Shown here: piece after piece, positions 75 to 46,946 of the stretch | How positions within the stretch are numbered: position 1 is the stretch's first letter | Layout: each line of letters starts with the position of its first letter | Assembly (NCBI GenBank): GCA_026993805.1 | Contig: JALWSA010000021.1 | Coordinates: 1-64,000, forward strand | From: Thermotogaceae bacterium | GTDB taxonomy: Bacteria > Thermotogota > Thermotogae > Thermotogales > Thermotogaceae | Direction: 5' to 3' | Length of the DNA: 64,000 bases | Notes under the pieces: generated by a model | The model's input: the letters and a program-made list of their open reading frames with translations, nothing else | Databases searched by the model: none | What the model was told of the DNA's origin: nothing | Position numbers and translations under genes: made by a program

Positions 75-103
75 ATTATAAATACTCGATAGGGAAAAAA
101 CAA
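75..103 (-). promoter_or_regulatory. Promoter of tRNA-Ser(CGA)
   Basis: On the minus strand a TTGTTT box (98-103) is followed after exactly 17 bases by a perfect TATAAT (75-80), about 17 bases before the mature tRNA 5' end at 58. The -35 box matches consensus in only three of six positions. Spacing and position support a sigma-A type promoter that would transcribe the tRNA separately from the genes upstream. Confidence 0.65.
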
Positions 104-108
104 GGCTT

Positions 109-432
109 TTATTCCTCGGCACTCTCCTGCCAGATTTCGAAGACTCTTTTTGCCTCTTCATAGTCTTCCACATACTCCAAAAACTCTTCATCTCCTTCTC
201 TCACTATCCTAAAAACATGTACTTCATCCTTCTCATCGACTATCTTTTCCATAGCTTCATCTAAAACAACCTCGTTACAGAGCAGGTATTCGTTTCCTTC
301 GAAGCTAATCCTTCCAAGTTCTTTATAGAATCTTTCCGTTCCATCGTCATCCATAATGGAAAACACTTCTATTTCGACCATCTCGTGCTCGTGGTTATCT
401 TCTTCTGGAAATCTTATATGAAAATCAATCAC
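109..432 (-). CDS. DUF1292 family small acidic protein
   Basis: A 107-residue, strongly acidic protein with no signal peptide or membrane segment. The order of short beta strands (FSIMDDDG, YLLCNEVV, VHVFRIV) and the helical acidic tail fit the DUF1292 family (B. subtilis YrzB-like), whose function is unknown. It starts with GTG at 432, overlapping the hemW stop by eight bases (GTGATTGA), so it is the last gene of the cluster and probably translationally coupled to hemW. The family assignment is by pattern and not certain. Confidence 0.75.
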   Translation of the reverse strand: MIDFHIRFPEEDNHEHEMVEIEVFSIMDDDGTERFYKELGRISFEGNEYLLCNEVVLDEAMEKIVDEKDEVHVFRIVREGDEEFLEYVEDYEEAKRVFEIWQESAEE

Positions 433-42539: not shown

Positions 42540-43460
42540 TCAGATCCATCTCTTTTTCCTGAACCAGAAGAGTATGAGGAGGATACTCACAGCAGACCAG
42601 ATTATTATGTGAAGGAAAGCATGCGGATCTTTTTGGAGTGGAAGTGCGACATTCATCCCGTAAAAGCTCGAAAGCAACGTAGGAATTTCCAGTATTATCG
42701 TCATCACAGCGAGGATCTTCATAACGATGTTTAGGTTGTTTGAGATTATCGAGGCATAGGCGTCCATCATACCCGCGAGTATGTCGCTGAATATGTTTGC
42801 CGTGTCTATTGCCTGCCTCGTGTCTATTATCGCGTCTTCGAGTATGTCCCTGTCTTCTTCGTATATTGGGATCACATTTCCCTTCAGAAGCCTGTCCATG
42901 ACGAGTTCGTTCGAGCGAAGCGAAGTTACGAAGTAAACCAATCCTTTTTCAAGTCTCATCAGCTCTTCTATTTCTTTGTTTCTCAAGGATCTATGAAGCT
43001 CCTCTTCTATCAGGTCTATGCTTTTTTGTATCTCGCCGAGGTGGGTTAAAAAGAAGCGGGCGTTCATCTGGAGTATTTGAAAGAGCATCCTGCTCCTTTT
43101 CTTTATATCGAACTTCGCCATATTCCCATCTATGAAATTCACCTCTCTCTTTGATACAACGAGCGTGTAATCGGGAGTGAGGACTATTCCCATGGAGGTC
43201 GTTCTGTAAGGGAGTCTGCTGCCTTGAGGAAGCTTCATGGGAATCTTCAAGATAACGAGCACCCTGTCTTCATCCACATCCACCCTTGCTCTTTCGTCCT
43301 CGTCTAACGGGTCTAAAACAAAATCTTCGTCAACGTCTAAAAATTCTACGGCCCATCTTATCTCTTCTTCGGAAGGGTCGATCAGCCTTATAACACAACC
43401 CTTTTCGATATTCGAAGTCTCAACGACATTGCCGTTTCTTTTCACATAGACCTTTTTCAT
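42540..43460 (-). CDS. corA: CorA-family magnesium/cobalt transporter
   Basis: A 306-residue protein: a long cytoplasmic N-domain with helices, then two C-terminal membrane helices with the channel signature YGMN (near residue 268) between them. ATG 43460 follows GGGAGGAAG by six bases, better than the upstream GTG. It lies 26 bases after malF and may be co-transcribed with it, without a functional reason that can be seen. Confidence 0.93.
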   Translation of the reverse strand: MKKVYVKRNGNVVETSNIEKGCVIRLIDPSEEEIRWAVEFLDVDEDFVLDPLDEDERARVDVDEDRVLVILKIPMKLPQGSRLPYRTTSMGIVLTPDYTLVVSKREVNFIDGNMAKFDIKKRSRMLFQILQMNARFFLTHLGEIQKSIDLIEEELHRSLRNKEIEELMRLEKGLVYFVTSLRSNELVMDRLLKGNVIPIYEEDRDILEDAIIDTRQAIDTANIFSDILAGMMDAYASIISNNLNIVMKILAVMTIILEIPTLLSSFYGMNVALPLQKDPHAFLHIIIWSAVSILLILFWFRKKRWI

Positions 43461-43486
43461 GAGAGACTTCCTCCCTTCGATTCCGC

Positions 43487-45169
43487 TCACTCAAACTCCT
43501 CTTCAAAAGAACCAGACAGCTTGAAGTTCACAAAAGATATTCCCGCCACTATGAAGAAGATGATTATCGAAACTGCGGAAGCAAAACCGAAATCCTGGCC
43601 TCTTCCGCCTTCGAAAGCGAGTTTGTACGTGTAGGATATCAGGATGTCCGTGGCTCCAGCCGGAGTAGTCGTCCCGGGAATCGGGGGACCACCGCCGGTC
43701 AGGAGGTATATGTTTACGAAGTTGTTGAAGTTGAAGGCAAAGGATCCTACGAGAAGTGGCGCGACCGTGGTCATTAACAACGGGAAAGTTATTCTCCAGA
43801 ATCTGTTCCACTTTCCGGCACCGTCTATCTGTGCCGCTTCATACAGCTCATCAGGTATAGACTGGAGAGCTCCGAGTGAGACGGTCATCATGTACGGGAA
43901 ACCGAGCCAAGTATTCACAATCAAAACAGCAACCTTAGCCCAGAACGGATCGTTGAACCACTTAACGGGTCCCAGTCCAAACAGTTTTCCGAGTAAAAAG
44001 CGGTTTATGATTCCGTAAGTCTCGTTGAACATGCCGTTTTTCCAGACCAAAACGGAAATGAAAGCTGGAACAGCCCAAGGAATTATCAAGAGCGTCCTAT
44101 AAACCGTTCTTCCTCTCAGGCTTCTGTCGTTGAGAACCAAAGCAAAAGACAGACCTATTACAAAGGTGAAGAGAACGCTCAAAGAAGCCCACGTGAAAGT
44201 CCACCAAAATATCTTCATAAAAGGTCTTGCGACATTCGGATCTTTGAAAATCCTCAAGAAATTCCAAAAACCCACATAAGCTATATACCCAGCAACGAAT
44301 CTCTTTTCCCCATCGATTAAATCGTAGAAAGCCCCATTTTCCTCTATCAAAGGCCTTCCAGTCTTTGTGTTCACAATGACCTCTTCCTTCACCACCTTAC
44401 CGCCGGCAGTCCTTTCGGCAACTTTCAGAGAGTAAAGGCGTTTTATCTTGAAGAATCTCCACTTTCCGTCTGTATGAAGCCTCAAAGCGTATCTCATTCC
44501 ATCTGGAAATACGAATTCAGCACGAAAGAGATACTTCTGAGCTATCGTAGATTTGAACTTCCCTTCGTTCCGGTACGTTGAGCTATCATCTGGATCGTAG
44601 AATTTCTTGTATACCTTTCCGTTCAACGTCATGTATCTTGGCTTTTGAGGATCAGGATAAAACGTTGCTCCTTGCGGAACATAAACTTTTCCCTCTCTGA
44701 GAAGAACCAACCTCCCCATTCTCACGGCGGCTTTCGGAGGATCCGCTATAAAAATCTTTCTCTCTTTTTCAAAGAGAATCACGAAATTATCGTCACCCGA
44801 TGTGAAGACGGAATAAGATACTGAAGGTGTGGATTCCAAAGTGTACGTGTACGTGGGATCGGTCAGAAGCGTAAGGACGGCTTCACGCCTCGTCATCATG
44901 TGACCCGTCCCGTAGTTCGTGAAAGCAGTCTTGATCGTGAAGTATATAGGATACAGGACGAGAATGAACAGCAAAATCAGGACTGGAATGGTGTACCTGT
45001 AAGGATAAGCTTTTGGATTCAATATGAAGAAATCTATCAGAACCATGAGAATCACAAGTGTAACACCCAAACCCGGAAGTGTACCGGTGGCTATGAGATA
45101 AACAGCAGCCCAGAATATGAGTGCACTTATGAGTCCTGCGAAGAGTAGCTTTGCAGTCTTGACCAACAC
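43487..45169 (-). CDS. malF: MalF-type sugar ABC transporter permease, without adjacent malE/malG
   Basis: A 560-residue permease. Three N-terminal membrane helices (about 6-78), an extracytoplasmic insert of about 220 residues, then the BPD_transp_1 core with EAA loop EAAQIDGAGKWNRFWRITFP near residue 441. This matches MalF, which pairs with MalG to import maltose or related glucans; T. maritima MalF is longer still. Neither a binding protein, MalG nor an ATPase lies in the window. GTG 45169 is seven bases after GAGGTG. A different oligosaccharide is possible. Confidence 0.88.
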   Translation of the reverse strand: MLVKTAKLLFAGLISALIFWAAVYLIATGTLPGLGVTLVILMVLIDFFILNPKAYPYRYTIPVLILLFILVLYPIYFTIKTAFTNYGTGHMMTRREAVLTLLTDPTYTYTLESTPSVSYSVFTSGDDNFVILFEKERKIFIADPPKAAVRMGRLVLLREGKVYVPQGATFYPDPQKPRYMTLNGKVYKKFYDPDDSSTYRNEGKFKSTIAQKYLFRAEFVFPDGMRYALRLHTDGKWRFFKIKRLYSLKVAERTAGGKVVKEEVIVNTKTGRPLIEENGAFYDLIDGEKRFVAGYIAYVGFWNFLRIFKDPNVARPFMKIFWWTFTWASLSVLFTFVIGLSFALVLNDRSLRGRTVYRTLLIIPWAVPAFISVLVWKNGMFNETYGIINRFLLGKLFGLGPVKWFNDPFWAKVAVLIVNTWLGFPYMMTVSLGALQSIPDELYEAAQIDGAGKWNRFWRITFPLLMTTVAPLLVGSFAFNFNNFVNIYLLTGGGPPIPGTTTPAGATDILISYTYKLAFEGGRGQDFGFASAVSIIIFFIVAGISFVNFKLSGSFEEEFE

Positions 45170-45313
45170 GGTTCCACACCTCGCAGCATCAATGATACAT
45201 CAACTCTCCTCTTTTAAACAACTGCCACTTACAACCTGACCCATACCACATCCGCCTGTATGAACATCTTGTACAAACTAAAAAACTTTTTGCAATTCTT
45301 ATATATTACAAAG

Positions 45314-45345
45314 TTGTATTAATTGTACGGATTATGTAATATAAT
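45314..45345 (+). promoter_or_regulatory. Candidate promoter of the second MCP gene
   Basis: In a very AT-rich stretch, TTGTAT (45314-45319) lies 17 bases before TAATAT (45337-45342), and a perfect TATAAT occurs at 45340-45345. The block TTGTA recurs three times nearby, including a TTGTACAA palindrome near 45271, so a regulator site is possible. The exact -10 is undecided. Confidence 0.45.
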
Positions 45346-45389
45346 ATGCTACCCAAACCTGTAAATACATGTGGAGGAGGGGTGTGCGC

Positions 45390-46946
45390 ATGAGAAGCGT
45401 TAAAGGAAAACTCTTGTTAGGCTTCGGAGTAGTCATATTACTTTTGATAGTCTACATACTCTTCGTATTCGTTGAAGTCTACCACATATCGAAAACCGTG
45501 AAGCAAACGGCAAAATTCAACCTAATCTTGAACCAGCTCGAATATACGATGGGAAAACTTTCCAAAAATGGATCTGTGGAAACCGTGAGGCTCTGGAACG
45601 AGACGTTGGAAAAGCTGAAAGATCTGGAGGGGGATCTGTCCAAATCCATAAAGCAGCTTGTGGAAAAGCTCAGAGTGGAAGCCAAAAGTCTGATCACAGA
45701 AAGCGACATTGTTAAAAGATCCGAAAAGTTCGAAAATCTATCAAAAGATGTATTAACAGCTCTCGAAAATATGCAAAGCGCTAACCTGAAAAGAGTACAG
45801 ATTCTCACGATTAGCTTTGGAAGCGCTATTGTCGTTATATCCCTCGTATTCGCTTTCCTGATTTCAAGAAGTATTGTGAGACCCGTGAATAAATTGAGTA
45901 CACTGGTGGAGAACATGAGTAAGGGCATTTTGAACGTTGAAATAGAGGAGATAAAGAGCAGAGATGAAGTGGGCAGAATGGCACTGGCTGTAGAGGATAT
46001 GCGAAGGGATATCATGAGGGTTGTAGACTCGATAAACAAGGCTTCACACGATCTCACAGCGGCATCCGAAGAGCTTTCAGCCGCAACTCAGGAAATATCT
46101 GCAACGCTCAGCAACTTGGCGGAAGAGATGAACAGCATGGCAAAGGAGGCAGATTCTAATTCCGCCGCTCTGGAACAGATTTCTGCGAGTATAAAGGAGT
46201 TCTCACAGGCTGCCGAGGAAAACGCAAGAGCCGCTGACAGGATGCTCAGTGAAACCAACTCACTTTTCGAGGCTTTTGAAAAGAAGATATCCGATGTTAG
46301 AAATGCAAAAGAAAAAGCTGGAAAGACCAAAGAGCTTTCAAGTGAAACGAAACACGCTCTCGAGAAACTTCTCGGAGTAGCCGGAGAGATAATGACGATA
46401 GTCGAGACGATAAACACGATATCCGACCAGACAAACCTTCTCGCTCTCAACGCTGCCATAGAAGCTGCAAGAGCCGGGGAAGCCGGGAAAGGCTTTGCCG
46501 TCGTCGCGGACGAGATAAGGAAGCTTGCAGAAGAAGTCAAAGGAGCCACATTCAAGATCTCGGAAATTTTGGAAACACTCAAAAAGCAGGTGGATATAGC
46601 AGCGAGCATGGTGAACGAATCCGCCGACTCCGTTGAAGCGCTGACGCAGGAGCTGGAAATGCTCATAGCCCTTTTCAACGAGACCGAAAATTCTTTGAAG
46701 AACATCCAAACGATGGTGGAAACAGTAGCCGCATCGACACAGCAGCAAAACGCCGGCTTGGAAGAGATGGCGGCGGGAATAAGCAGATTGAGCAGTCTCG
46801 TGGAAAGCGCAAACGAAGTAACTCAGAGCCTCAACGCATCGGTACAGGAACTCAACGCAACCCTCGAAGAAATCAGTGCTTCAGCACAGCATCTTTCAGA
46901 AGCGGCGAGCTTCCTGCAGGCAGAAATCGATCACTTCCAGGTGTGA
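45390..46946 (+). CDS. Methyl-accepting chemotaxis protein (second of two)
   Basis: A 518-residue chemoreceptor: membrane helix at about 8-29, a helical sensor of about 115 residues, second helix near 150-172, HAMP, and signalling domain with [20 protein letters not shown] and [15 protein letters not shown], identical to the first MCP at the tip. The sensor is short and all-helical. ATG 45390 follows GGAGGAGGGG. Monocistronic with its own terminator. Confidence 0.95.

Follow-up and report, generated by a model that had tools for sequence, protein, structure and literature searches.

The window (the whole 64,000-nucleotide stretch of DNA that was analysed) carries a malF gene whose product, judging from its sequence, is the full-length MalF permease of an importer with maltose as its predicted substrate. 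The positions of malF, its surroundings and the genes elsewhere in the same genome that are discussed below are collected in Table 1. The open reading frame begins with GTG and encodes 560 residues without an internal stop. Its product scores 405.7 bits against the NCBIfam MalF equivalog PRK10999, above the curated cutoff of 392, and the second-best NCBIfam match was UgpA with 90 bits. The Pfam domains BPD_transp_1 and TM_PBP2_N were found, covering the N-terminal MalF domain and the ABC permease core, and the EAA coupling loop, ELYEAAQIDGAGKWNRFWRITFPLL, can be aligned to the E. coli loop.

The closest PDB matches were MalF chains, both by sequence and by fold. For the latter, an AlphaFold model was built from 25 MalF sequences (24 of the 80 related loci were used), with a mean pLDDT of 76.4, a pTM of 0.59 and values below 50 in parts of residues 485-523. 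The top Foldseek match of the model was to E. coli MalF chains (E 2.4e-29, TM-score 0.56 by query length, overall rmsd 8.4), with approximately 33% identity over the entire Foldseek alignment. Between TM3 and TM4 the model predicts a large, beta-rich P2 domain with block pLDDT values of 80 to 94.

Table 1. Positions of malF, its neighbours and the importer genes discussed in the text. Coordinates without a prefix are those of the window; C-numbers are other contigs of the same genome.
Feature	Position	Strand	Remarks
malF, maltose importer permease subunit	43487..45169	-	ORF, profile, alignment and model evidence
MalF layout	P2 at MalF residues ~85-300		N-terminal TM helices, periplasmic P2 domain, ABC permease core with EAA loop ELYEAAQIDGAGKWNRFWRITFPLL
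malF/MCP divergent intergenic region	45170..45368	.	199 bp
MCP (methyl-accepting chemotaxis protein) gene	45369-46946	+	divergent neighbour upstream of malF
corA-family Mg2+/Co2+ transporter gene	42540-43490	-	downstream of malF
malG	C38:3787-6129		sole MalG ortholog of the genome at the cutoffs used (L159)
malE	C2:7189-8352		sole MalE ortholog of the genome at the cutoffs used
orphan UgpC/MalK-class ATPase gene	C3:9672-10769		UgpC subfamily, 509 bits (cutoff 432)
E2, binding protein	C24:4910-6190	+	loci of E2, F2 and G2: L305, L291, L292
F2, permease	C32:13759-15042	+	likely E2 partner; alone
G2, permease, 750 aa	C37:8910-11162	-	likely E2 partner; alone; L292

The original prediction had described malF as flanked by corA downstream and a divergent MCP gene upstream, with no malE, malG or ATPase gene adjoining it, and the open reading frames and tblastn searches confirmed this arrangement. 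No match to a malE or malG remnant was reported at either malF junction (tblastn, E<=1). The gene is surrounded by just short two-copy repeats and imperfect inverted pairs, no jump in composition across the stretch was seen at malF, and of the three tRNAs that Rfam detected in the window at gathering scores none lies close to it. A promoter-like site, TTTACA-16-TATATT (45365-45338, minus strand), is present in the malF/MCP intergenic region, where such sites are no commoner than in shuffled sequence. The likelier start of corA is the ATG at 43460, which is preceded by a GGGAGG box and lies just 26 bp past the malF stop, so that malF and corA are probably carried on one transcript.

The P2 insert had also been suspected to be shorter than that of Thermotoga MalF. 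Measured from FTNYG to GFWNF, it spans 217 residues here and 234 to 235 residues in all ten full-length rows of the Thermotoga-type genus g4, so the suspicion was correct. The remaining three full-length MalF rows of the clade to which this genome belongs (see below) have inserts of 215 to 217 residues. The short insert is therefore best read as an inherited trait of the clade and not as decay.

Partner genes in the same genome

The genome (1.69 Mb in 69 contigs, 99.14% complete) contains, at the cutoffs used, one ortholog each of MalF, MalG and MalE, on three different contigs (C21, C38 and C2) and with unrelated genes on either side of each. A phosphodiesterase (PDE) gene lies directly behind malG and a divergent GGDEF gene before it, and malE stands between a UDG gene and a peptide deformylase gene. 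A broken operon with the partners elsewhere, one of two explanations offered originally, agrees with these single orthologs on other contigs, and the break is common to three genera. The other explanation, in which the permease shares subunits of a different system, is unneeded for MalE and MalG and is likely for the ATPase only. A genome-wide search for a locus with malG and malE and without malF found the two genes each alone, not paired. Likewise, a complete malEFG locus elsewhere together with decay of the present copy, which had been raised as the contrary outcome, was not observed: each gene occurs once at these cutoffs and all three are conserved.

MalE passes the cutoff of the MalE equivalog (304 bits, cutoff 291), and among solved structures it lies closest to chains with the names MalE2 and MalE1, from T. 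maritima. MalG falls slightly short of its equivalog cutoff (253.5 bits, cutoff 261), plausibly because of a long insert. The protein has 781 residues and can be aligned to E. coli MalG over residues 3-54 and over its final 220, an alignment that takes in the EAA loop and the C-terminal tail. The approximately 500 residues in between, unmatched in E. coli MalG, constitute a long hydrophilic insert for which no match among PDB sequences was found at E 0.001.

No ATPase gene is located beside malE, malF or malG in this genome. Two ATPases of the UgpC class are encoded, one on contig C61 beside the genes of another importer, and the other an orphan on contig C3, which has no PF00528 or PF01547 matches. 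Just upstream of the orphan (L296:4667-6032) is a small gene of 85 aa that was judged by eye to be antitoxin-like. In the available part of Noll et al. (2008, PMC2246101), both mal operons of T. maritima (TM1204-1202 and TM1839-1836) are given without an ATPase gene, so that its absence beside malF is not peculiar to this genome.

Scattering in one clade and candidate remnants of the operon

The linkage of the three genes was surveyed in 103 Thermotogota genomes, with E-value cutoffs of 1e-60 (MalF, MalE) and 1e-45 (MalG). In 82 genomes malE, malF and malG are found together, although in some of these the linked set may be a paralog with a shorter G subunit. All three genes are apart in six genomes: the present one (genus g1), two of genus g2 and three of genus g5, all from the same family. 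Another nine have malF and malG together and malE apart, seven of them making up genus g32 and the other two (G020 and G075) being fragmented assemblies. The rest comprise one genome with malE and malF together and malG on another contig, one with the set split over two contigs, and four with genes missing (MalG in one, MalF and MalG in one, all three in two).

Quick trees were computed from the fetched stretches, not from all 103 genomes (36, 35 and 34 rows). Where malF is split, as in G012 and in the mal2 operon of G004, one piece of it was used. The six scattered genomes form a single clade in each tree, with SH-aLRT values of 99 for MalF, 97 for MalE and 100 for MalG. Genera g1 and g2 are sisters in the MalF (84) and MalG (93) trees and not resolved as such in the MalE tree, and the position of the clade among the other groups differs among the three. 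Since the six genomes are monophyletic for all three proteins, one ancestral operon appears to have come apart, and the scattering is most simply explained by a single event or series of events in their common ancestor.

In genus g32 (family f10; G052-G058, L285-L288), malE is unlinked from malFG in all seven genomes. This is a partly broken operon that is conserved within the genus and that, unlike the clade studied here, keeps malF and malG together. The two g32 members in the trees lie far from this clade, which points to a separate event, apparently an independent partial break. The assignment of genus g4 as Thermotoga-type is our inference from its two mal operons and the split malF2 of G004. 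In that genome (L069, G004:C1:1806000-1821000) the mal2 malF falls into two open pieces, in agreement with the malF2 frameshift that the available part of PMC2246101 notes for T. maritima.

Several neighbouring genes may date from before the split. A PDE gene (PF01663; 34 to 38% identical) is found behind malG in five of the six f3 stretches and in the single f8 and single f9 stretch; the Thermotoga-type, f2, f10 and f11 stretches examined lack it. It abuts malG in G000 (the present genome), G011 and G013, both g2 genomes have an APS-kinase-like gene between the two, and in G012 the contig stops at malG. The other five clade genomes, whose contigs extend far enough, all have a PhoH-like gene next. 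The adjacency of malG and PDE may be what is left of an operon of malEFG and the phosphodiesterase gene. A second block, UDG-troR-galE, follows malE on the same strand in all three genomes of g1 and g2, and lies beside malG in divergent orientation in all three g5 genomes. On the simplest reading, malF left first, with malE and malG remaining neighbours for a time, and these two were later parted differently in the two branches, with at least one inversion required.

The surroundings of malF itself vary with the lineage. Four contexts were seen: MCP and corA in g1, RNase HI and an abhydrolase in G002, glycerol-3-phosphate dehydrogenase in G001, and EamA-DUF1848-histidine kinase in g5; the neighbours are thus unlike even between the two g2 genomes. 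The neighbours searched for by contig position were the abhydrolase and RNase HI genes of G002, the dehydrogenase gene of G001 and the EamA and DUF1848 genes of g5, and none of them adjoins malF in another genus. MCP matches of less than 60% coverage outside the window are hidden in the neighbourhood comparison.

Synteny around corA in relatives had been proposed as a check on the malF locus. The malF-corA pairing holds in the window and is absent from all five clade relatives, where corA lies elsewhere than malF; CorA was considered as a functional partner of MalF and is an unlikely one. In g5 a corA ortholog is located approximately 1.5 to 2.7 kb from G2, a permease gene of a second importer described below (L314:3279-8006 in G013; L316:3513-9374 in G011), and its occurrence there as well as behind malF in the window is probably a coincidence. 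Gene order decays fast in general in these genomes: of the mutL, MFS, corA, PEBP and IMPase genes of the window, just mutL and MFS persist as neighbours in G013.

All six clade genomes have an open malF, the copies of G001 and G012 being cut by contig ends. Over nine comparisons pN ranged from 0.06 to 0.37 and pS from 0.74 to 0.84. For the pair of the present genome and G002, the fraction of nonsynonymous sites that differ was 0.12 for malE, 0.19 for malF and 0.34 for malG, with synonymous sites saturated (0.75 to 0.82) and MalG just 51% identical. In all six clade rows MalF and MalG retain intact EAA loops, and MalG its tail. Relative to MalE, the tree lengths of MalF (ratio 2.17, versus 1.51 to 1.85 in three operon clades) and of MalG (4.62, the highest, versus 3.32 to 4.20) are somewhat high and not runaway. 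Pairwise tree distances of MalE, MalF and MalG correlate at 0.89 to 0.95 over 34 shared rows, a range that partly reflects shared species history. Nothing here suggests decay of the mal genes in the clade.

A second scattered importer and regulation

The genome has 12 SBP_bac_1 genes, and for ten of them a permease match lies within 1 kb. The two without one are malE and another binding protein gene, E2, whose likely permease partners, F2 and G2, also stand alone. The three genes are neighbours in the Thermotoga-type genome G005 (L306). F2 and G2 are adjacent in all four outgroup stretches (L307-L310), with E2 elsewhere in those genomes, and they are apart in G000, G001 (where F2 is cut by the contig start), G002, G011 and G013. 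This comparison covers five of the six clade genomes, the F2 ortholog of G012 not being established. At E 1e-50 a joined E2/F2/G2 query matched every one of the 103 genomes, though not in each case with all of its three parts.

A common operator before malE, malF, malG, E2, F2, G2 and the orphan ATPase gene was sought among 6- to 8-mers, against a background of 212 upstream regions of the same genome that included the tested genes, and nothing convincing was found; the best word had an uncorrected p of 9e-4 among all words scored. TTGTAC/GTACAA boxes occur before malE and malF and were rejected as a shared operator, being missing before malG. The available part of a sugar-regulon reconstruction (PMC3750489) gives no regulator for the T. 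maritima mal genes. The two observations together fit constitutive expression and do not prove it.

Proposed importer assembly from unlinked genes

The reading we favour, with a probability of roughly 0.83, is that the clade has an ordinary MalE-MalF-MalG maltose/maltodextrin importer, made from unlinked genes and using a shared ATPase, whose operon was split in the clade ancestor and whose genes were kept. The three genes would have been separated in the ancestor of this genome and its two sister genera and retained as separate genes. Their products would be translated from separate mRNAs and come together in the membrane, where the orphan ATPase of contig C3 would drive MalFG, probably while serving other sugar importers as well. 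Weak or absent operon-specific regulation may have made the split tolerable.

The system resembles the mal1 and mal2 systems of Thermotogales, as presented in the available part of PMC2246101, in its orthologous MalE, its MalF with a large periplasmic loop, its MalG with a long hydrophilic region and the lack of a linked ATPase gene. It differs from those contiguous trios in its three unlinked genes, the PDE gene behind malG and a P2 insert that is 17 to 18 residues shorter. With the E. coli MalFGK2-MalE complex (PDB 2r6g, 4jbw) it shares the MalF fold with P2, the EAA loops and the C-terminal tail of MalG; unlike in E. coli, MalG has 781 aa (296 in the E. coli chain) and no dedicated malK adjoins the genes.

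A solitary gene in surroundings that change with the lineage, with a P2 domain that falls approximately 17 residues short of that of the Thermotoga-type genus, could also be a leftover heading for loss from a transporter that is already defunct. We consider this very unlikely, given that malF is open throughout the clade (apart from the two contig-end truncations) with its motifs intact, and that amino-acid change is limited despite saturated silent sites. The shorter P2 is moreover found in all four full-length clade rows and is modelled at block pLDDT values of 80 to 94. The scattering of E2, F2 and G2 in the same clade, and an ATPase that may be shared, make mixed complexes conceivable, in which a re-purposed MalF pairs with the permease of another importer, such as G2 or another UgpE-like subunit, instead of MalG. 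Each of the six genomes has kept its own dedicated MalG and MalE, and these proteins form the same clade, which speaks against such an exchange, as do the correlated distances of the three proteins, even if shared species history accounts for part of that correlation; we regard it as improbable.

Draft assemblies can separate genes that are neighbours in the cell, and five of the six clade genomes consist of 69 to 390 contigs. That the scatter arose in assembly or binning is nevertheless highly improbable. The mal genes of the present genome sit inside contigs with unrelated genes on both sides, ten other importer loci of the same assembly stay together, and the pattern recurs in six assemblies. 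In G013, which has approximately 20 contigs, malG and malE are 381 kb apart on one contig.

The preferred reading, an ordinary importer encoded by dispersed genes, bears on what operons contribute. malEFG is a textbook operon, and a three-way split that is kept under selection would be a natural experiment on the benefits of an operon for a hetero-multimeric membrane complex, namely stoichiometry, co-translational assembly and regulation. With a second importer scattered in the same clade and ten others left together in this genome, the question becomes a comparative one. No report of a scattered mal operon in Thermotogota was found by title or abstract in open-licence PubMed Central. The analysis adds that the dissolution of the mal operon is inherited and conserved within a single clade, where a second importer shows a parallel dispersal. 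For annotation, such genes should not be called orphans.

The two scattered importers have two features in common: both are widespread in the phylum, and each includes a G subunit whose hydrophilic insert runs to several hundred residues, a correlation of two cases. MalG has 781 aa and G2 750 aa, versus 266 to 292 aa in seven of the G subunits of importers left together and 424 aa in one. Speculatively, this class of importer might be independent of co-translation from one mRNA, perhaps with the large MalG insert serving in trans as a scaffold for docking or assembly. Under constitutive expression, such operons would be free to dissolve, and importers that move by gene transfer would have to stay clustered. 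We consider this idea unlikely. As to the surroundings of G2, a gene named by eye as mnmA-like lies beside it in G000, G001, G011 and G013.
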